A stretch of 41,361 bases of DNA. Source: Singulisphaera sp. GP187 (GTDB lineage: Bacteria > Planctomycetota > Planctomycetia > Gemmatales > Gemmataceae). The stretch covers positions 1 to 41,361 of the forward strand of contig CAMDQN010000056.1 of the NCBI GenBank assembly GCA_945905925.1, in the 5' to 3' direction. Both the position numbers and the translations under genes were made by a program. Below are positions 18,298 through 26,565 of the stretch, piece by piece. Under the pieces are notes generated by a model. That model saw only the letters and a list, made by a program, of their open reading frames with translations. It did no database searches and was not told where the DNA came from. Each line of letters begins with the position of its first letter. Position 1 is the first letter of the stretch.

Positions 18298-18486
18298 GGG
18301 CCGAAACCTTAGTTGTGTGGGGAGTGATTCTATCGGAGAGGTGACGCGTTTGCGATGTGAACGAGTGTCCCGCGCCGTGGTCAGAGCCGGAATGTCGTTG
18401 ACTTCGTGTGCCGAAGTTGCGAGAGTTTTACTATTCTCTCCCGCCGTATTCGCTCTCGTTTCGCACCTCCAACCCACGCGATCACT

Positions 18487-19743
18487 ATGCCGCGTTCCTT
18501 CTCACCTGCGCCGCGGGCGCTGTCCCGCCGGACCTTCTTGCGCGGGGCCGGGGTTGCAATGGCTCTGCCGTTGCTAGACGCCATGCGGCCGGCGTTCGCG
18601 GCCGAGAAAGCCGACGTGCCGCGGCGAATGGTGTGCATCGAGACGAACATGGGCATCTTGCCGCAGTTCTTCTTCCCGGAGCAGGCCGGCAAGGACTACG
18701 CCCTCTCCCCATACTTGGAACGGCTCAAGGCGAATCGCGACCACCTCACGGTGTTCTCGGGCGTCAGTCACCCCGGCGTGACCGGTGCGCACGCAGCGGA
18801 GAAGTGCTTCCTCACCGGCACGCCGCACCCAGAGCGCGGCGGGTTCCGCAACTGGGTGTCGCTCGACCAGTATGCGGTCGAACAGATCGGCAATCGCACG
18901 CGCTACCCTTCACTCACGCTCGGCGTCGGCAGTGAGGGGCAAACGCTCAGTTACACTCGCAGCGGCGCACCGATCCCGATCGAGCGCAGCCCGAAAAAAC
19001 TCTTCGAGCGGTTGTTCGTGCAGGGGAAAGCGTCGGAAGTCGCGGCCCGGATGGAAGAACTTCGCCAGGGACGCAGCACCCTCGACTTCGTCGGCGATCA
19101 AGCGAAGCGGTTGAACGCGTCGCTCTCCGCGGCCGACAAACAGCGTTTGGAGCAGTACCTCAGTTCGGTGCGCGATCTGGAACAACGGCTCGCGAGTGCC
19201 GAGGAATGGGAAACCAAACCGAAGCCGAAGGTGACCGCTACGCCACCGGAAGACATCAAGGACGGCCGCGAGTTCGCGAAACAAACGACGATCATGTTCG
19301 ACGTGATCAAGCTCTCGCTGGAAACGGACTCGTCGCGACTCGTGTCGCTTTTCATCGATGCGACGTCGATTCACAACATCACGCACCACGGGAACCGCCC
19401 CGAGGTACTCGCGGAGTTGCGGGCGAAGGAGGAGACGCAGTTCGACGCGCTCGCGGGGTTCCTGAAGGTTCTGTCCGAAGCGAAGGAAGCTGACGACACG
19501 CTGCTCGGTCGGACGATGGTGCTGTACGGGACGTGCATGGGCAGCGCGAACTCGCACTCGAACTACAACTTGCCGGTGCTGCTCGCGGGCGGCGGGTTCA
19601 AGCACGGTCAGCACCTCGCGTTCGACAAGGACAACAACTACCCGCTGACGAACCTGTTCGTGTCGATGCTCCAACGCTTGGGAATCGAAACGCGCGAGTT
19701 CTCGACGGGCAAGGGCACGATGCGCGGGCTGGTGATGAGTTGA
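18487..19743 (+). CDS. DUF1552 domain protein, Tat-exported
   Basis: 418-aa protein of the DUF1552 family, abundant in planctomycetes. A twin-arginine signal lies at the start (SRRTFL, residues 13-18, then a hydrophobic stretch ending PLLDAMRPAFA), so it is exported folded. Family-typical segments include RRMVCIETNMGILPQFFFPE, FSGVSHPGVTGAHAAE, CFLTGTP, HNITHHGNRPE and NYNLPVLLAGGG. The domain is related to sulfatase/alkaline-phosphatase-like folds such as DUF1501, but its reaction is unknown. The DUF1592 cytochrome gene follows, the standard neighbour of DUF1552 genes. The ATG at 18487 is chosen because it places the RR motif near the N-terminus. The 189-bp gap upstream is shared with the divergent uxaE gene; I see no convincing promoter in it. 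Confidence 0.92.
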   Translation: MPRSFSPAPRALSRRTFLRGAGVAMALPLLDAMRPAFAAEKADVPRRMVCIETNMGILPQFFFPEQAGKDYALSPYLERLKANRDHLTVFSGVSHPGVTGAHAAEKCFLTGTPHPERGGFRNWVSLDQYAVEQIGNRTRYPSLTLGVGSEGQTLSYTRSGAPIPIERSPKKLFERLFVQGKASEVAARMEELRQGRSTLDFVGDQAKRLNASLSAADKQRLEQYLSSVRDLEQRLASAEEWETKPKPKVTATPPEDIKDGREFAKQTTIMFDVIKLSLETDSSRLVSLFIDATSIHNITHHGNRPEVLAELRAKEETQFDALAGFLKVLSEAKEADDTLLGRTMVLYGTCMGSANSHSNYNLPVLLAGGGFKHGQHLAFDKDNNYPLTNLFVSMLQRLGIETREFSTGKGTMRGLVMS

Positions 19744-19786
19744 GAAAAGAGAAAAACAGGTCTCTCGCAAAGCCGCGTCTTTTCTG

Positions 19787-19918
19787 CCCCTCTCCCCTTG
19801 CGGGAGAGGGTGTCGGCGCTTCGCCGACGGGTGAGGGGTAGCGCCTTCTGCGGGCTAATGTTTCACCCCTCACCCCGCCGCGAAGCGCGGCGACCCTCTC
19901 CCTCAAGGGGAGAGGGCG
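19787..19918. repeat. Two inverted copies of a ~53-bp double-hairpin repeat
   Basis: Unit 1 (19787-19839) has two hairpins: CCCCTCTCCCC/GGGAGAGGG and GTCGGCG/CGCCGAC, ending GGGTGAGGGGT. Unit 2 (19865-19918) is the same design in the opposite orientation, starting ACCCCTCACCCC. Units like this (CCCTCTCCCC...GGGGAGAGGG plus GGGTGAGGGG) are widespread dispersed repeats in bacteria. It fills the gap between the DUF1552 and DUF1592 genes. Any ORF extended into it encodes repeat sequence only. Confidence 0.85.
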
Positions 19919-19947
19919 AAAACCAAGAACACCGCGACATTCCCACC

Positions 19948-22572
19948 ATGACCCACTTCCGCAGCACGCTCCTCGTTTCGCTCGCCACACTCGCGCTCCC
20001 GACCATCGGGCGCACCGCGCCGCCGGTCGCGTTCCTCGCGGACAACTGCGTGTCGTGCCACGACGCCAACGGCAAAGCCAAAGCCGGCGGTCTCGACCTC
20101 ACCGCACTGAAGTTCAGCCCAGCCGATGCTGAGAATTTCGCGACTTGGGTCAATATCCATGACCGCATCGCGAGCGGTGAGATGCCGCCCAAGAACAAGC
20201 CGCGACCGCCCGCGGCCGACATCGTCGCGACCACGAAGACGCTCCATGATGATCTCGTCGCAGTTGAGCGAAAGGCGGTCGCCGCGAACGGTAAGACTCG
20301 CCTCCGAAGGCTCACTCGCGTCGAGTACGAGAACACCGTTCGCGACCTCTTCGACCTCCCCGGTCTTCCGCTCCAGATCGACCTCCCGCCGGACGGACAG
20401 GTCCACGGGTTCGACAAGAACTCGGACGCCCTCGACCTGTCACACGTCAACCTGTCGAAGTACATCGAAGCCGCCGACCGCGTACTCGACACGGCCATCG
20501 CGAAGCGCCCGACCGCGCCGAAGCCGGACAAGTTCCGCACCACACTCGCGTACCCTTCGGGGTTCGTCGCGCACGTCCTCATGAACGGCGACGGCGTGCT
20601 CCTCAAGAACAAGAAGCCGGACCCGGATTTCCCACCCGCGGGTGAACACAACCACCTCGACCAAGGCGCACACGAGCGCCTGGGCACGTTCCGCAACGGG
20701 GCGAGCGTTGGGCTGTTCCGCCACGAGGACGAATCGTTCCACCCGTACTTCAACGAGTTCGTCGCCGTCTACCCCGGCCGCTACAAGCTCACAACCTCGC
20801 TCTGGGCCTTCCAGTGGGACAAGGGGAAAGTGCTGCCGGCGCGCGGCACCGAAGCGGCCCGGCTCTCGATCGTGCAACTCACCGGCGACGGGCGCGGTGG
20901 CGGTCACCCCAGCACGGTACTCGGCTACTACGACGCGCCGTCGATGGACGAGCAGAAGCACGTTGTCACCACGTGGCTGAACCCGCGCGAGACAATCGGG
21001 TTCAACGCGGCATCGCTGGCCCCGGCGGCGAACTACGCGCGCAAGGGTCGCGCGATGGCGTTCACCGGTCCCGGGATCACGTGCGACTACTTCGAAGTGG
21101 AAGGGCCACTGCACGACACCTGGCCGCCGGTTGGGCACAAGCGGTTGTTCGGCGATCTGCCCATCGAGAAGGTTGATCCGAAAGCGAATCCGAACGTGCG
21201 GTTCCCGGTGCGCGCCCCGGACCGGCAACAGTTGTTCATGGCGAGGAACAAACCGGACCCGATCGAAGGCCTGTGGACCGTCTCCAGTACGAAGCCGCTC
21301 GAAGACGCTGACAAGTTGCTCGCGGACTTCCTCCCGCGAGCGTTCCGGCGTCCGGTCGCGGCCGATGTGCGGAAACTCTACGTCGCGAAAGCGGGCGAGC
21401 GCATCAACGCGGGCGACTGCTTCGAGTTGGCGATGCGGTGGGCGTATCGCGCCGCGCTGTGTTCGCCCGACTTCCTCTTTCACGTCGAACCGGCGGGCGA
21501 ACTCGATGACCACTCGCTCGCGTGTCGGCTGTCGTACTTCTTGTGGAACTCGATGCCGGACGAGAAGCTCTCCGCTCAAGCCACGACCGGGAAGCTCAAG
21601 AAACCCGAAGTGCTTCGCGCGGAGATCGACCGGTTGCTCGCGGACGCACGCTCGCAGCGATTCGTCGATGACTTCTTGGGCCAGTGGTTGAAACTGCGCC
21701 TGATCGCGGCCAACGACCCGGACCGCAAGCTCTACCCGGAGTTCAACAAGTACCTGCAAGACTCGATGATGGCGGAATCGCTCGCGTATTTCCGCGAACT
21801 CATCGACAAGAACCTCACGGCCGACTACCTCGTGAAGTCGGACTTCGCGATGATCAACGGCAAACTCGCTGCGCACTACGGTCTGCCCGCGGTGTCTGGC
21901 TCGCAGGTACGCCGCGTGCAACTCCCGCCCGGCACGCCGCGCGGCGCGTGCATCACGCAGGCGGCGGTGCTGAAGGTGACGGCCAACGGCACGACAACGT
22001 CGCCGGTTCCGCGTGGCGCGTTCGTCCTAGATCGACTTTTGGGTCAGCCCCCCGCCCCGCCCCCGCCGAACATCCCCGCAGTGGAGCCTGATGTTCGAGG
22101 CGCCGTAACAATCCGCGAACAGCTCGACAAGCACCGCAACCACGCGATGTGCGCGTCGTGCCACACAAAGATGGACCCACCGGGCTTCGCGTTGGAAGAG
22201 TTTGACGTGATCGGCGGGCACCGTGGGCGCTACCGTTCACTTGGAATCGGCGATCCGGCCCCGCGCGGCACCATCGACCCGTTCATTGGCATCGGCTTCA
22301 AACTCGGCCCGAAGGTCGATTCCAGCGGGGTACTCCCTGACGGGCGGAAGTTCTCCGACCTCACCGAATTTCAAACGCTACTCGCCGCGAACAAGGATTT
22401 GCTTCTGACGAACCTCGCGAAGCAGTTTGCAGTGTACGCGACCGGGCGCGGGGTGTCATTCGCGGACCGCGACGAGATCGTGGCCGTGATCGCCGTCACG
22501 AACAAGAACGGCGGCGGAACCCGCACGCTGATTCACGACCTGATCCAGAGCCAGTTGTTCCGAACCCACTGA
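19948..22572 (+). CDS. DUF1592 domain cytochrome-like protein (DUF1587/1592/1588/1585)
   Basis: 874-aa exported multidomain protein. Signal peptide at residues 1-23. A first c-type heme motif CVSCH (C34-H38) lies in a PSCyt1-like domain with GEMPP. DUF1587 follows (LRRLTRVEYENTVRDLF), then a large central domain, then DUF1592 (ALCSPDFLFHVE, ACRLSYFLWNSMPDE), DUF1588 (ADYLVKSDFAMINGKLAAHY; GRGVSF in DUF1585) and a second heme motif CASCH (C735-H739) in HAMCASCHTKMDPPGFALEE. This domain order is characteristic of planctomycete cytochromes that accompany DUF1552 proteins. Their biochemical role is unknown; an extracytoplasmic redox or polysaccharide function has been suggested. The ATG at 19948 starts after the repeat region and gives a clean signal peptide. 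The next gene is only 7 nt away. Confidence 0.93.
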   Translation: MTHFRSTLLVSLATLALPTIGRTAPPVAFLADNCVSCHDANGKAKAGGLDLTALKFSPADAENFATWVNIHDRIASGEMPPKNKPRPPAADIVATTKTLHDDLVAVERKAVAANGKTRLRRLTRVEYENTVRDLFDLPGLPLQIDLPPDGQVHGFDKNSDALDLSHVNLSKYIEAADRVLDTAIAKRPTAPKPDKFRTTLAYPSGFVAHVLMNGDGVLLKNKKPDPDFPPAGEHNHLDQGAHERLGTFRNGASVGLFRHEDESFHPYFNEFVAVYPGRYKLTTSLWAFQWDKGKVLPARGTEAARLSIVQLTGDGRGGGHPSTVLGYYDAPSMDEQKHVVTTWLNPRETIGFNAASLAPAANYARKGRAMAFTGPGITCDYFEVEGPLHDTWPPVGHKRLFGDLPIEKVDPKANPNVRFPVRAPDRQQLFMARNKPDPIEGLWTVSSTKPLEDADKLLADFLPRAFRRPVAADVRKLYVAKAGERINAGDCFELAMRWAYRAALCSPDFLFHVEPAGELDDHSLACRLSYFLWNSMPDEKLSAQATTGKLKKPEVLRAEIDRLLADARSQRFVDDFLGQWLKLRLIAANDPDRKLYPEFNKYLQDSMMAESLAYFRELIDKNLTADYLVKSDFAMINGKLAAHYGLPAVSGSQVRRVQLPPGTPRGACITQAAVLKVTANGTTTSPVPRGAFVLDRLLGQPPAPPPPNIPAVEPDVRGAVTIREQLDKHRNHAMCASCHTKMDPPGFALEEFDVIGGHRGRYRSLGIGDPAPRGTIDPFIGIGFKLGPKVDSSGVLPDGRKFSDLTEFQTLLAANKDLLLTNLAKQFAVYATGRGVSFADRDEIVAVIAVTNKNGGGTRTLIHDLIQSQLFRTH

Positions 22573-22579
22573 GGACGCC

Positions 22580-23164
22580 ATGCATGCACACCGCTTCTTC
22601 TCCGCGGCGCTCCTGATCGCGGCTCTCGTGACGAGCGCCGGGACGGTTGCCGCACAGCCCGCGAAGGCTGAACCGAAGATCGAGAAGATCACCTACCGCG
22701 TCACTGGGTTGTTTTCCCCGGACCGCGAGAAAGATCTGCGCGCCGCGTTCGAGGAACTGCCCGACTTCAAACTCGTCGCGGTCAACTTCAACGACGCGGA
22801 GATCACCGTTGAATTCTCGCCCGCGAAACTGTTCCCGGGTCAGAAGCCAGATCGCGTCACGGAGCTGGTCAACGACAAGGTGCGATCGGTTACGCGCGCC
22901 ACGTTCGGCGTGAAATCGCGGCGCACCGTCGCGCGCGACAAGCTTCAACAGGTGGTCATTCCGGCGGCGGGTCTCGACTGTAAGGCGTGCTGCCTCGCGG
23001 CCTACGAAGCGATCGCGACCATCGACGGCGTTGAGCAAGCCACGGCCAGTTTCAAGGACGGCAAAGTGACCGCGCTCATCGACCCGACGAAGACCGACAA
23101 GTCCAAACTCGAAGAGGCGCTCAAGAAGAAGGGCGTGGATCTCGGCAAGCCCGGCAAACCGTGA
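22580..23164 (+). CDS. Secreted HMA-like (heavy-metal-associated) protein
   Basis: 194-aa exported protein with signal peptide (about 1-25, cleavage near VAAQP). It appears to contain two ferredoxin-like HMA folds. The first (about 34-110, ITYRVTGLFSPDREKDL...ITVEFSP) has no cysteines. The second (about 125-190) carries C134-K-A-C137-C138 in GLDCKACCLAAYEAIATIDGVE at the position where HMA domains have their metal-binding CxxC, followed by the typical VTALIDP strand. Metal binding by the second domain is therefore plausible; the first is probably structural or regulatory. The gene starts 7 nt after the DUF1592 cytochrome stop, so the two are likely co-transcribed. Confidence 0.82.
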   Translation: MHAHRFFSAALLIAALVTSAGTVAAQPAKAEPKIEKITYRVTGLFSPDREKDLRAAFEELPDFKLVAVNFNDAEITVEFSPAKLFPGQKPDRVTELVNDKVRSVTRATFGVKSRRTVARDKLQQVVIPAAGLDCKACCLAAYEAIATIDGVEQATASFKDGKVTALIDPTKTDKSKLEEALKKKGVDLGKPGKP

Positions 23165-23220: not shown

Positions 23221-23292
23221 CCCCGTTTCGACCGGTCGGCGGTTCGCAAATTGATTGTTCCCGTCCGCTTCCACACACTACGGAGATGTAAG

Positions 23293-23682
23293 ATGTTCGC
23301 ACGATTGGCTCTCGCCTGGTCACTGGCCTTCGGTATGGTCGGGTTTTGCCTGATCGCCGGCGCCGCGCAGGACAAGAAACCAGATGAGAAGAAGGACGAG
23401 AAGAAGGATGAGAAGGACCGTAAGGGGGCGGTGACCGGTGTGATCACCGCGAAGGGCGACAACTGGATCGAGATCAAGGCCGACGGCGAGGAGAAGGCCC
23501 GCAAGTACGTTCCGCAGTGGAAAGGTGGCGCCCCAGCCGCAGGCGGCGGTCCAGACAAGGACATGGTCGCGCAGATCAAGGGCACCGTCGTGAACAGTCG
23601 CGTGAAGATCGAGTGGCTATTCGAGGAGCGCTTCCGAGTCATGAAACTTGAAGTACTCAAGAAGCCAGAAGAGAAGAAATGA
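23293..23682 (+). CDS. Small secreted protein of unknown function
   Basis: 129-aa protein. The signal peptide spans about residues 1-25 (LALAWSLAFGMVGFCLIAGAA). A Lys/Asp/Glu-rich stretch follows (KKDEKKDEKKDEKDRK), then a small beta-rich domain (about 45-129) with GVITAKGDNWIEIKADGEE and QIKGTVVNSRVKIEWLFEERFRV. The latter resembles a small OB- or SH3-like barrel, but I cannot assign a family. GGAG 7 nt before the ATG at 23293 supports that start over a longer one at 23251. A short remnant of a related tail lies upstream (23176-23220). Confidence 0.75.
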   Translation: MFARLALAWSLAFGMVGFCLIAGAAQDKKPDEKKDEKKDEKDRKGAVTGVITAKGDNWIEIKADGEEKARKYVPQWKGGAPAAGGGPDKDMVAQIKGTVVNSRVKIEWLFEERFRVMKLEVLKKPEEKK

Positions 23683-23779: not shown

Positions 23780-24982
23780 ATGTCCCGCGTCCTGGTTCTG
23801 CCCGCCCTGATGCTCATCGCGGGTTCCGCGACGGCCGCGCCGAAACCCGACGCCGCGAAATACGGCTGGCACACCGACTACGCGACCGCGAAGGCGGAGG
23901 CGAATCGCACCGGCAAGCCGATGCTACTCGTCTTCCGTTGCGAGCCTTGAGGCGACTGCGCCCCGATAGACGAGCAGGTTGTTCGTCTCCACAAGGACAT
24001 CGCAGATGTCGCCGACAAATTCGTCCGCGTTCGACTGGTGAAGATCGCCGGGGCGGATCTGCGCCGGTTTGAATTCGACTACGATCTCACCTGGTTCGTG
24101 TTCCTCTTGAACGCCGACGAGACCGTCTACGGGCGTTACGGCGGGCGCGACGCGTTCGACGCCGAGGCCCGTCTCTCGCTGAAGGGCCTGCGCCACGCGA
24201 TGCTCCGCGCGCTGGAGGTTCACAAGGCGCCGCTGGCCGCGACGCCTCTCATGGGCAGAGCGGAGCGCGCCGAGGACTTCGCCGCCGCGGCCCGCCACAC
24301 CGGCTGCATCCACTGCCACAACGTCAACGAGTTTCGCCGGGCCGATCTCAAGGCCGCCGGGAAGTGGGACCGCAACAGCGTGTGGGTGTACCCGTTGCCC
24401 GAGAACGTCGGTATCACGCTCGACGTGGATGGTGGCGACCTTGTGAAGTCCGTCACGACCGGCTCAGCGGCGGAGAAGGTCGGGCTGAAGGCAGGTGACC
24501 GCGTCGCGAAGCTCAACGGGTACGGTATCGCGTCCTTTGCGGATGCATCGTACGCGCTACACAAGGCGCCGCCGAAAGGGGACATCTCGCTCTCGTGGAT
24601 TCGCGCCGGGAAGGAGACGACCGCCACGCTTTCCGTCACCGACGGCTGGCGAAAGACCAATTTGACGTGGCGGCCGTCGATGCTTGACATACTCCCCTCG
24701 GCGCCATTCAGCGGCGACGAGTTGACCGAGGCCGAGAAGAAGGCGTTGGGGCTGGATCCGAAGCACGCAGCGCTTCGCCAGGATGCAGAAGTCCACGCGA
24801 CTCTCAAAACCGCAGGGGTCCGGGGCAGGGATGTGCTGATCGGGTACGACGGGAAGGCTGTCGAGGGCGACATCAGCAGGCTGTTCGGCTACGTCCGACG
24901 AAACTACCTCGTTGGTGACGAAGTCACCATCAACGTCATCCGCGACGGCAAGCGCGTCGATCTGAAGTTGCTGCTGAAGTAG
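23780..24982 (+). CDS. Trx7/PDZ-type selenoprotein with in-frame TGA (Sec57) and a CxxCH motif
   Basis: 400-aa exported protein read through an in-frame TGA at 23948-23950. Signal peptide at 1-20 (VLVLPALMLIAGSATAAP). A thioredoxin-like domain begins GKPMLLVFRC54-E-P-U57-G-D-C60 and continues with DKFVRVRLVKI and WFVFLLNADETVYGRYGG. A c-type heme motif C176-I-H-C179-H180 follows, then a PDZ domain (about 205-290; GSAAEKVGLKAGDRVAKLNG) and a second PDZ-like region (about 325-400). The frame is open and homologous in style on both sides of the TGA, the stop falls exactly in the redox loop between two Cys, and a SECIS-like hairpin follows. GTG at 24038, the first start of the downstream part, lies mid-domain. 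An NCBI family name that I recall, Trx7/PDZ domain-containing (seleno)protein, fits. Probable periplasmic thiol redox role. CGAGG precedes the ATG by 7 nt. Confidence 0.88.
23951..23990 (+). promoter_or_regulatory. Candidate bacterial SECIS element
   Basis: Immediately 3' of the in-frame TGA. AGACGAGC (23968-23975) pairs with GTTCGTCT (23981-23988) in an 8-bp stem with one G-U pair and an AGGTT loop (23976-23980). Bacterial SECIS elements carry a GGU-type apical loop about 16-37 nt after the UGA (E. coli fdhF loop AGGUCU); here the loop starts 26 nt after it. Confidence 0.65.
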
Positions 24983-25128
24983 TTCGGAAGGACCCGCGAG
25001 ACCGGCGTGAGCCATCAGTCGCCACCTAGGTGAGGAGACGTGATCGCTGGCAACCTAACCGGGTTTGGAGTAAAGCGGACCACGCGGTATAAGTGAGTTG
25101 GGAGAAGTTGCACACCTCAGGCAGGCAA

Positions 25129-26565
25129 ATGGATTCGATCGAACTGCGAGACCTCGACGCGGCCCGGCACTACATCCTCGACGGATTGTTGCTCCAACGC
25201 GCGCTCAAGCCGACCGCGAACACCGTCCGGCGCGCTCTCGAATGGGCGATGGAGATCGCGTCCGAAGGCGACCCACTCCCGCCGATCGGGTTCGTCGCGG
25301 ACGTGGGCAACGTCGCGCTCGGGGTGGATTCCGAACAGCGTGTGCGCGAGGCGTACCCGGTTCCCGGTTGGCCGCCGGCGCTCGGACGCAGTTACGAAGA
25401 CCACGTTCTCGGAAAACTCTACGCGGACTGGACTTTCGAGCGCGCGGGCGACGCGCTGCGGAAGTACAAGGACAAGGACCGGGTTCGCGGGTTGGCGTAC
25501 ATCGTGCGCCAGATTTGCGACCGCGCCGGGATCGCCGGCGTGCTGCTCCCGCCCGCGGTGATCCGCGGGCTGCAAACCACCAACCCTGACGAGGTCATCC
25601 AGACCGGCTACGACGGCCTCGTGCGCGACGGCCCTTCCGCGCTGCTCGTTCAGATGTACGAATCGCTCGTGTCCGCCGGGCGTCGGATCGCGGAGGTACT
25701 CGCGCCCGAGGACGTGATCGCGCTGGAACAAGGAACGGCACTCGCCGACAAGGCCCAGTACGTCGCGCACCGGCAGATTCTGCAAACAACGGCGCGGATC
25801 GAATCCAGGCTCCCGGCGCGCCCGGTTAAGCCACTCGTCGGCCGCAAGGAAGTTCCCACTCGCGTGCTCGACGAGGATCAGTACCCGGTGGGCGGGTACA
25901 CGTCGATTTCCACGAAAGGCTCGATCGAGAGCCTGTTGCACTCGCAACTCGCGTACATGGAAGAGGAAAGCCCGGACCTGTTCGACATGAAGTTCGTGCG
26001 CGACGAACTGTTCTACTACTCACGCGACGAGAACCAGTTCCTGCGCCGGCGCCGGGCGTTTGCGTTCGTGCTGTACCCGGACCTTCTTGCGGCGCGATTC
26101 AAGGACGGCGAACTGCCGTACCAGCGTATCGTGTTGATCCAGTCCACGATTCTCGCGCTCGTTCGCAAGTTGACCGACTGGCTGAGTACGGACGCAATCC
26201 GCTTTGAAGTGCTGTTCGTGCTAGATAGTGGCAAGAACCCACTCGCGGAAGAGGCCTCGCTGCTGAAACTGCTGCTGCGCGAGCCGATCGAGCGCGGTGA
26301 TGGCGAGGTGTTGGAACTCCCGGATCACAACGCGGTGGTGACGCACCTGAACCGCTTGTCGCGTATGGCGCAGGTTCACTGCCTCGCGTCCGCGACGGAG
26401 CCGTTCGAGATGGACTTGGACAACGTGGTTGTTACCGAGTTGATCGTGAGCGGTCCACGCCCGGAGATCGGGAGCGGCGATGGCGTGGTCGCGGTACTCG
26501 ACGGCGAAGACCCGTTCGACGTGTGGCAGGAAACCGTGTTCCGCGTGCTCCGGTTGTGGGTGTAG
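25129..26565 (+). CDS. Unrecognised protein with possible degenerate vWA-like C-terminal domain
   Basis: 478 aa from the ATG at 25129 (a GTG at 25093 would add 12 residues). I do not recognise the family. There is no signal peptide or membrane span, so it is cytoplasmic. The N-terminal two thirds are mostly helical and acidic, with several Tyr and Arg. In the last third, RRAFAFVLYPDLL, then a long helix YQRIVLIQSTILALVRKL, then IRFEVLFVLDSG form a beta-alpha-beta order like a von Willebrand A fold. The metal site DxSxS is absent (YPDLLAARF instead). Proteins of this kind occur in MoxR/vWA-linked ternary systems, but no MoxR AAA+ ATPase lies in this window, so that is speculation. A strong terminator follows, so it ends its transcript. 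Confidence 0.75.
   Translation: MDSIELRDLDAARHYILDGLLLQRALKPTANTVRRALEWAMEIASEGDPLPPIGFVADVGNVALGVDSEQRVREAYPVPGWPPALGRSYEDHVLGKLYADWTFERAGDALRKYKDKDRVRGLAYIVRQICDRAGIAGVLLPPAVIRGLQTTNPDEVIQTGYDGLVRDGPSALLVQMYESLVSAGRRIAEVLAPEDVIALEQGTALADKAQYVAHRQILQTTARIESRLPARPVKPLVGRKEVPTRVLDEDQYPVGGYTSISTKGSIESLLHSQLAYMEEESPDLFDMKFVRDELFYYSRDENQFLRRRRAFAFVLYPDLLAARFKDGELPYQRIVLIQSTILALVRKLTDWLSTDAIRFEVLFVLDSGKNPLAEEASLLKLLLREPIERGDGEVLELPDHNAVVTHLNRLSRMAQVHCLASATEPFEMDLDNVVVTELIVSGPRPEIGSGDGVVAVLDGEDPFDVWQETVFRVLRLWV

Follow-up and report, generated by a model that had tools for sequence, protein, structure and literature searches.

Organization of the locus

The window analysed here is a stretch of 41,361 nucleotides from Singulisphaera sp. 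GP187. On its forward strand, at 23780..24982, it contains a gene for a 400-amino-acid protein of the thioredoxin/PDZ type. When the frame from 23780 to 24979 is translated with TGA read as an amino acid, it runs without interruption to a TAG stop codon at 24980-24982, and its sole TGA is codon 57 (23948-23950), within the sequence R53-C54-E-P-U57-G-D-C60. Under translation table 11 the same region yields 56 codons, from the ATG at 23780 to the TGA, and a 314-amino-acid ORF beginning at GTG 24038. The original prediction had described a 400-codon frame broken by a TGA at 23948, the motif RCEPUGDC at the break, and a gene that ordinary calling would split into products of 56 and 314 residues; retranslation reproduced the coordinates and the motif exactly, and the two products match the table 11 ORF list.

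All of the neighbouring genes considered here lie on the same strand. Just upstream of the selenoprotein region, at 18406-22572, are an HXXSHH (DUF1552) gene and, after it, a planctomycete cytochrome-type (PSD/PSCyt) gene. Next comes a gene for a small HMA/MerP-like protein (22580-23164), for which the nearest NCBIfam model is NF041115 (UxxU metal-binding (seleno)protein), matched at 48.5 of 95 bits and so below the cut-off. A small gene coding for an OB-fold-like product (23251..23682, probable start ATG 23293; pLDDT 88.3 for the predicted structure) is directly upstream of the thioredoxin/PDZ gene, and a gene for a vWA protein of the FtsH ternary systems type (25093-26565) is directly downstream.

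Family membership and domain structure

The joined protein matched the NCBIfam family NF041199 (NF041199.1) with 445.7 bits, against a cut-off of 300, over model positions 2-388 of 390. The family name given in the original prediction, Trx7/PDZ domain-containing (seleno)protein, was thus the right one, and the PDZ domains that it named were found by a Pfam search of the joined protein. The Pfam families above cut-off on the 400 amino acids were PF13899 and PF13180/PF17820. The Thioredoxin_7 domain (PF13899, 6.6e-11) covers residues 30-111 (23867..24112), although a fold match of residues 28-152 shows that the thioredoxin fold reaches to about residue 150. PDZ domain 1 (PF13180, 1.1e-14) covers residues 212-286 (24413..24637), and PDZ domain 2, residues 304-400 (24689..24979), was placed by a match to the DegQ PDZ fold (Z 12.8, 91 residues, 1.8 Å). 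Judged by eye from the translation, residues 1-20 (23780..23839) form a probable signal peptide, and the product is likely to be exported.

An AlphaFold2 model, built with an alignment of 55 sequences, had a pLDDT of 92.9 and a pTM of 0.87, and showed the Thioredoxin_7 domain followed by two PDZ folds that is characteristic of NF041199. The structure alignment omitted L282 (out of frame), L267 (one stop) and the near-duplicates L235, L243, L246 and L251. The best fold matches of the thioredoxin part were 3f9u (Z 13.1, 115 residues, 2.4 Å), 1sen (Z 12.5) and AGR3 (Z 12.4). The domain thus resembles AGR2, AGR3, TXNDC12 and DsbH-like folds (Z 11-13; AGR2 profile match, E 2.8e-7), but unlike these the window protein has Sec in place of Cys, an extra Cys or Sec three residues before it, a CxHCH motif and two PDZ domains. 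The PDZ domains resemble those of DegP and DegQ (HtrA, MucD) in sequence and fold. In contrast to those proteins, the 400 amino acids contain no trypsin-like protease domain with a catalytic Ser, since Pfam finds only thioredoxin and PDZ families in them.

Distribution of TGA and Cys codons in the family

To place the TGA in the context of the family we used Planctomycetota stretches that scored at least 150 bits with a custom profile. Removal of identical and contained sequences left 182 distinct copies, which are assigned to the phylum by their named near records. Homologues align over both halves of the joined protein. At positions 54 and 57, 61 copies have Cys at both (C-C), 54 have Cys then Sec (C-U) and 67 have Sec at both (U-U); the combination U-C does not occur. 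The matched stretches of the 182 copies hold 188 in-frame TGAs, all of them in columns 54 and 57, and where these columns lack TGA they hold Cys. The TGA codons are therefore not due to chance. The redox column of NF041199, position 57, is U in 121 copies and C in the 61 others; these 61 are the Cys homologues that the original prediction had proposed looking for, and the window protein has U. A sequencing error at 23948-23950 is very unlikely, because a homologous TGA is present in these 121 distinct copies from many assemblies.

Ten further stretches, collected later and outside the 182, included four U-U copies and again no U-C copy. In one of them, L294, the match contains a third TGA close to its end, and L299 and L300 have other stops. 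The Singulisphaera genome itself has a second family copy, all-Cys, on contig 173. In three relatives (L178, L181 and L188) two family copies lie side by side; at L188 the neighbour of a U-U copy is an all-Cys one without the third Cys. A quick FastTree tree, made with the motif columns removed, required a minimum of 5 Sec/Cys changes, and 19 changes at position 54 among the Sec copies.

Named records beyond the Planctomycetota come from bins labelled Armatimonadota, Verrucomicrobia, Kiritimatiellaeota, Poribacteria and, in one case, Alphaproteobacteria. This suggests that the NF041199 family extends beyond the phylum, although bin labels can be wrong. The U-U form was also found in one Abditibacteriales, one Armatimonadetes and one Poribacteria bin among 60 of 63 extra loci that were typed; the fragments L278-L280 were left untyped, and some of the 63 records are the same as genomes already in the relatives set.

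Selenocysteine machinery

The assembly (6.47 Mb in 251 contigs, 96.6% complete) contains matches to selA (555.6 bits), selD (387.0 bits) and, with its pieces joined, selB (365.4 bits), as well as a tRNA-Sec (69.5 bits) that ARAGORN calls as tRNA-SeC with anticodon TCA. The machinery whose presence the original prediction had made a point to check is thus all encoded in this genome. Three matches reach the Rfam cut-off for tRNA-Sec, and ARAGORN calls only the first as such; the other two were discarded, one being a tRNA-Ser and one uncalled. The selB match, on contig 174, is broken near model positions 166-176 inside a single open frame, and the same is seen in some relatives. One in-frame TGA is present in selD of the relatives G024, G032, G034, G036, G039-G043 and G048, and none in selD of Singulisphaera.

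Among 59 genomes (Singulisphaera and relatives), 19 have a TGA-containing family copy over cut-off. Of these 19, selA is over cut-off in 17 and tRNA-Sec is found at E<=1e-10 in 16. Both selA and tRNA-Sec are missing from 14 of the 59, and 13 of those 14 lack a TGA copy over cut-off. The exception, the draft assembly G034, has a TGA copy and no match to selA or tRNA-Sec, with selB and selD over cut-off.

A draw across the phylum gave a family match at E<=1e-60 in 123 of 392 genomes. The comparison with selA was made from the matches listed, which cover 120 of the 123, and a genome counted in it as Cys-only might hold a weaker, unlisted copy. A selA match at E<=1e-90 was present in 69 of 76 genomes with a TGA copy compared with 14 of 44 Cys-only genomes (Fisher 2e-11, not corrected for relatedness). 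The seven TGA-copy genomes without such a match are draft assemblies; like G034, they count against the selenoprotein reading. Sec genes have been described in another planctomycete, Gemmata obscuriglobus, in a 2016 paper (PMC4807772).

A hairpin downstream of the TGA codon

A SECIS-type hairpin, AGACGAGCAGGTTGTTCGTCT, is located at 23968..23988 on the forward strand, with a folding energy of -10.3 kcal/mol and its loop 25-26 nt after the UGA (26 nt in the computed fold). The published limits for bacterial SECIS elements (PMC13188914) are a loop of 3-9 nt, a G in the first two loop positions, a distance of 16-37 nt from the UGA and an MFE of <=-7.5; the window hairpin lies within all of them. 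A scan of the window with Rfam at gathering scores gave no match.

To our knowledge, hairpins of this kind are not expected to be listed in Rfam. Folding energy alone was rejected as a test for a SECIS, being too weak: the -7.5 limit was passed by 34 of 40 sampled Sec copies and by 8 of 40 Cys copies, but also by 23 of 40 synonymous shuffles. A Sec copy was lower in energy than its own synonymous shuffle in 28 of the 40 pairs.

After the UGA the Sec copies mostly read GAC-NNN-CAG-GTT-GTN-CGT, and 115 of the 121 have CAG as codon +9, compared with 4 of the 61 Cys copies. Across the seven stem pairs, 85% of cells are paired in the Sec copies and 20% in the Cys copies. The D-x-Q-V-V-R sequence of the Sec forms therefore probably reflects the RNA. 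When the 3′ letters of the Sec copies were shuffled, pairing was 77%, and none of 500 shuffles was as high as the observed 85%.

Covariation was measured in 37 Sec copies, all from other genera, that remained of 39 sampled when the own-genus copies L031 and L032 were removed. In this set 83.8% of cells pair, and 23 changes on both sides of the stem were counted against a shuffled mean of 5.0 (0 of 500 as high). The covariation score was 0.301, compared with 0.134 for shuffled sequences, a value that none of the 500 shuffles reached for the real 0.301. A shift of the partner column by 1-3 positions abolished the pairing. The stem is not uniform: three of the seven pairs are each unpaired in 9 copies, and by inspection copies of the CAG-TTG type need another hairpin register.

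A covariance model made from the same 37 copies (R2) scored the window hairpin at 43.2 bits (E 1.2e-11; such E-values are rough). Seven own-genus Sec copies outside the model, including that of the window, scored 39.6-45.4 bits. The best scores on 60 of the 61 all-Cys copies (L188 was left out, as it also holds a U-U copy) were 25.9, 21.7 and 20.0 bits. A search of the genome, with scores computed for 150 of the 5251 first-look candidates, placed the window site at the top; the next site had 21.1 bits. An earlier model of 33 copies (R1), which included L031 and L032 and omitted six of the 39 sampled, mostly with deviating hairpins, gave nearly the same result, with 43.9 bits for the window, pairing in 89.2% of cells and a covariation score of 0.313. 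The runner-up in the genome with both models, C20:59892 (21.1 bits, E 0.011), was considered as a second SECIS site and found unconvincing; its frame looks antisense. The all-Cys copies L028, L129 and L175 score 20-26 bits with the SECIS model and keep the Q-V pattern, and are perhaps relics of a lost SECIS.

In the two-Sec copies a hairpin loop 25-26 nt after the second UGA is 34-35 nt after the first. Both distances fall within the 16-37 nt range.

Reading of the TGA codon

The split of the frame under table 11, with a GTG start 87 bases after the TGA, is what would be expected if the TGA were a true stop and the locus a pseudogene or a pair of genes, the second starting at GTG 24038. Residues 58-86, which lie between the TGA and that start codon, had dN/dS values of 0.02-0.23 in five of six pairs (dS was saturated in the sixth). 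They are under purifying selection, and GTG 24038 is thus not simply where the second part starts. This conservation across the gap, together with the recurrence of TGA at one codon in two-thirds of the copies with Cys in the remainder, leads us to reject a pseudogene or a split gene as the interpretation of the locus; the covarying hairpin downstream also speaks against a true stop, to which we would assign only a very slight residual probability. Read-through in itself needs no Sec, so the TGA might be decoded as Trp or Cys, or passed by chance. Nothing specific favours such decoding. The confinement of TGA to two columns that otherwise hold Cys and never Trp, the Sec machinery of the genome, and a SECIS-type hairpin that accompanies TGA and is mostly lost with Cys all argue against it, and we regard it as just as improbable as a true stop. 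Incorporation of Sec at codon 57 is, on these comparisons, very likely, and we conclude with high confidence that this NF041199 gene is functional and encodes a selenoprotein, the TGA at 23948-23950 being read as Sec.

The redox centre

In a profile alignment of the thioredoxin domain with AGR2 (E 2.8e-7), U57 falls on the Cys of the AGR2 motif CPHS and C60 on its Ser. The UGA codon at 23948..23950 (forward strand, as are the two following) thus corresponds to the nucleophile position of a thioredoxin motif. Cys60 (TGC, 23957..23959), which is Cys in 169 of the 182 copies, is the second residue of the U-x-x-C pair. Cys54 (TGC, 23939..23941) is an extra redox residue three before Sec57, and its codon is replaced by TGA in 67 of the 182. 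The C-x-x-U-x-x-C loop of the original prediction therefore stands as far as its residues are concerned, but is better described as a canonical pair, U57-G-D-C60, with C54 as an addition. Sec at position 54 occurs only beside Sec57, as would be expected if 57 were the primary site; the history of the SECIS could also account for it. In the arrangement that we propose, Sec57 would be the attacking residue of the pair with Cys60, and Cys54 would act as a third chalcogen beside it.

The CxHCH motif and the gene neighbourhood

The original prediction also noted a CxxCH haem motif. It is present as C-I-H-C-H at residues 176-180 (24305..24319, forward strand), a possible haem c or metal site. All 182 copies have C176, H178, C179 and H180, a stricter conservation than that of the redox centre, and 163 of the 182 have His148. 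In Pfam, cytochrome families gave weak matches only, to 2 of 55 members (best E 0.2), and no Met column that could supply a distal ligand is conserved above 60% in the 182 copies. No cytochrome c chains were among the fold matches listed (50 of 990 aligned chains), which is no evidence against haem.

Among the 64 copies with at least 900 nt of upstream sequence, 11 have the OB-like gene in that interval on the same strand (10 of 28 C-U, 1 of 14 U-U, 0 of 22 C-C); the other 118 of the 182 had less sequence upstream. A conserved operon was considered as a clue to function and discarded: no neighbour is common to most loci, and the commonest, the OB-like gene, was found at 10. The predicted structure of its product was closest to a single-strand DNA-binding protein (best Z 10.5), with further matches to aminoacyl-tRNA synthetases and CusF, and Foldseek gave no match at E<=0.001; the predicted OB fold says little about function. 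In some relatives the OB-like domain is repeated in tandem, as two or three copies, at L222 (7436-7939), L223 (363-1142) and L236 (2711-3364).

Two other functions centre on the CxHCH motif. The protein could be an envelope selenol peroxidase or reductase with a haem link, in which case haem c at CxHCH would feed electrons to Sec57. The strict conservation of the motif and the exported appearance of the protein (by eye) would fit this, as would the PSCyt/DUF1592 gene among the window neighbours and two Cytochrom_C_asm matches in the genome, although these last do not discriminate on the question of haem. Against it, no cytochrome domain is recognised with confidence, only about 30 residues separate CxHCH from PDZ domain 1, and the gene neighbourhood is not conserved; a plain haem site, moreover, would not usually have an invariant His as the second x of CxxCH. 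A function of this kind is in our view unlikely. The motif could instead bind Cu, Zn or Fe in a metal-handling or metal-reducing redox protein, as four invariant Cys and His in five residues, the frequent His148 and the HMA/MerP-like gene two genes upstream might indicate. However, blastp of that gene against the set of neighbour ORFs gave no homologue (best E 0.19) and no metal family was matched with confidence, so that we hold this function to be about equally doubtful. As to the ligand itself, CxxCH suggests haem c, but a metal may be bound instead, given the extra invariant His and the absence of any domain recognisable as a cytochrome.

Discussion

The window gene adds a member to a family that is already catalogued. 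It matches NF041199 over the whole length, has the Trx_7 and PDZ domains and carries Sec at the CxxU position, and the window protein itself does not differ from the catalogued form. In the searched literature NF041199 appeared as a term in one paper, a 2026 review. The family apparently has an older history. A 2008 GOS paper on marine metagenomes (PMC2398784) names a putative secreted serine protease MucD with 2 Sec sequences; a 2021 paper describes MucD fused with PDZ, with additional conserved Cys without clear function; and a 2022 review lists a PDZ domain-containing protein with CxxU. To judge from these published descriptions, the MucD of the 2008 paper is apparently the NF041199 family. 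The old name then misdescribes the make-up of the protein, which has no protease domain.

What the present analysis adds is the placing of Sec57 at the nucleophile position, the two-Sec copies, where a single hairpin lies at a suitable distance from both UGAs, and the invariant CxHCH. The table of the 2026 review gives CxxU with 1 Sec for NF041199, whereas 67 of the 182 copies have a second TGA at position -3. The literature searched, with supplements and most subscription papers outside its scope and other sources available in part, contained no discussion that we met of the two-Sec form or of CxHCH in this family. The table of the 2026 review has other UxxU selenoproteins with two Sec residues three apart, as in the U-U copies (a Prx-like thiol:disulfide oxidoreductase, the metal-binding NF041115 and the FmdB family). 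These are different families, and in NF041199 U54-x-x-U57 precedes C60, the canonical pair being U57-x-x-C60. The Prx-like UxxU selenoprotein has at most the broad thioredoxin fold in common with the NF041199 family.

We propose that the hairpin at 23968-23988, together with SelB and the tRNA-Sec encoded in the genome, would allow the UGA at 23948 to be translated as Sec. The product would be exported, and would consist of a thioredoxin domain of the AGR2/TXNDC12/DsbH-like type followed by two DegP-like PDZ domains. It could then act as a thiol/selenol oxidoreductase of the envelope, brought by its PDZ domains to exposed C-termini or unfolded chains, and electron transfer may involve a haem c or a metal bound at CxHCH. 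Taken as a whole, this mechanism of a PDZ-targeted envelope oxidoreductase with electron transfer at CxHCH is tentative, and we think it rather more probable that it is wrong in some part than that it is entirely right. For the family, one hairpin may decode both UGAs, nine bases apart, with Sec54 gained and lost often but only beside Sec57; the copies would then form a series of a single redox centre with zero, one or two Se atoms, and with a haem or metal at CxHCH as its electron partner. The chances of this more general proposal seem to us to fall just short of even.

As the gene is split under the standard code, the true size and form of the family are easily missed. Its 61 all-Cys, 54 one-Sec and 67 two-Sec copies provide a natural comparison set, which allows the cost or gain of each Se atom to be tested, and also how one SECIS could serve two nearby UGAs. 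The invariant CxHCH in an exported-looking redox selenoprotein points to an electron-transfer arrangement.
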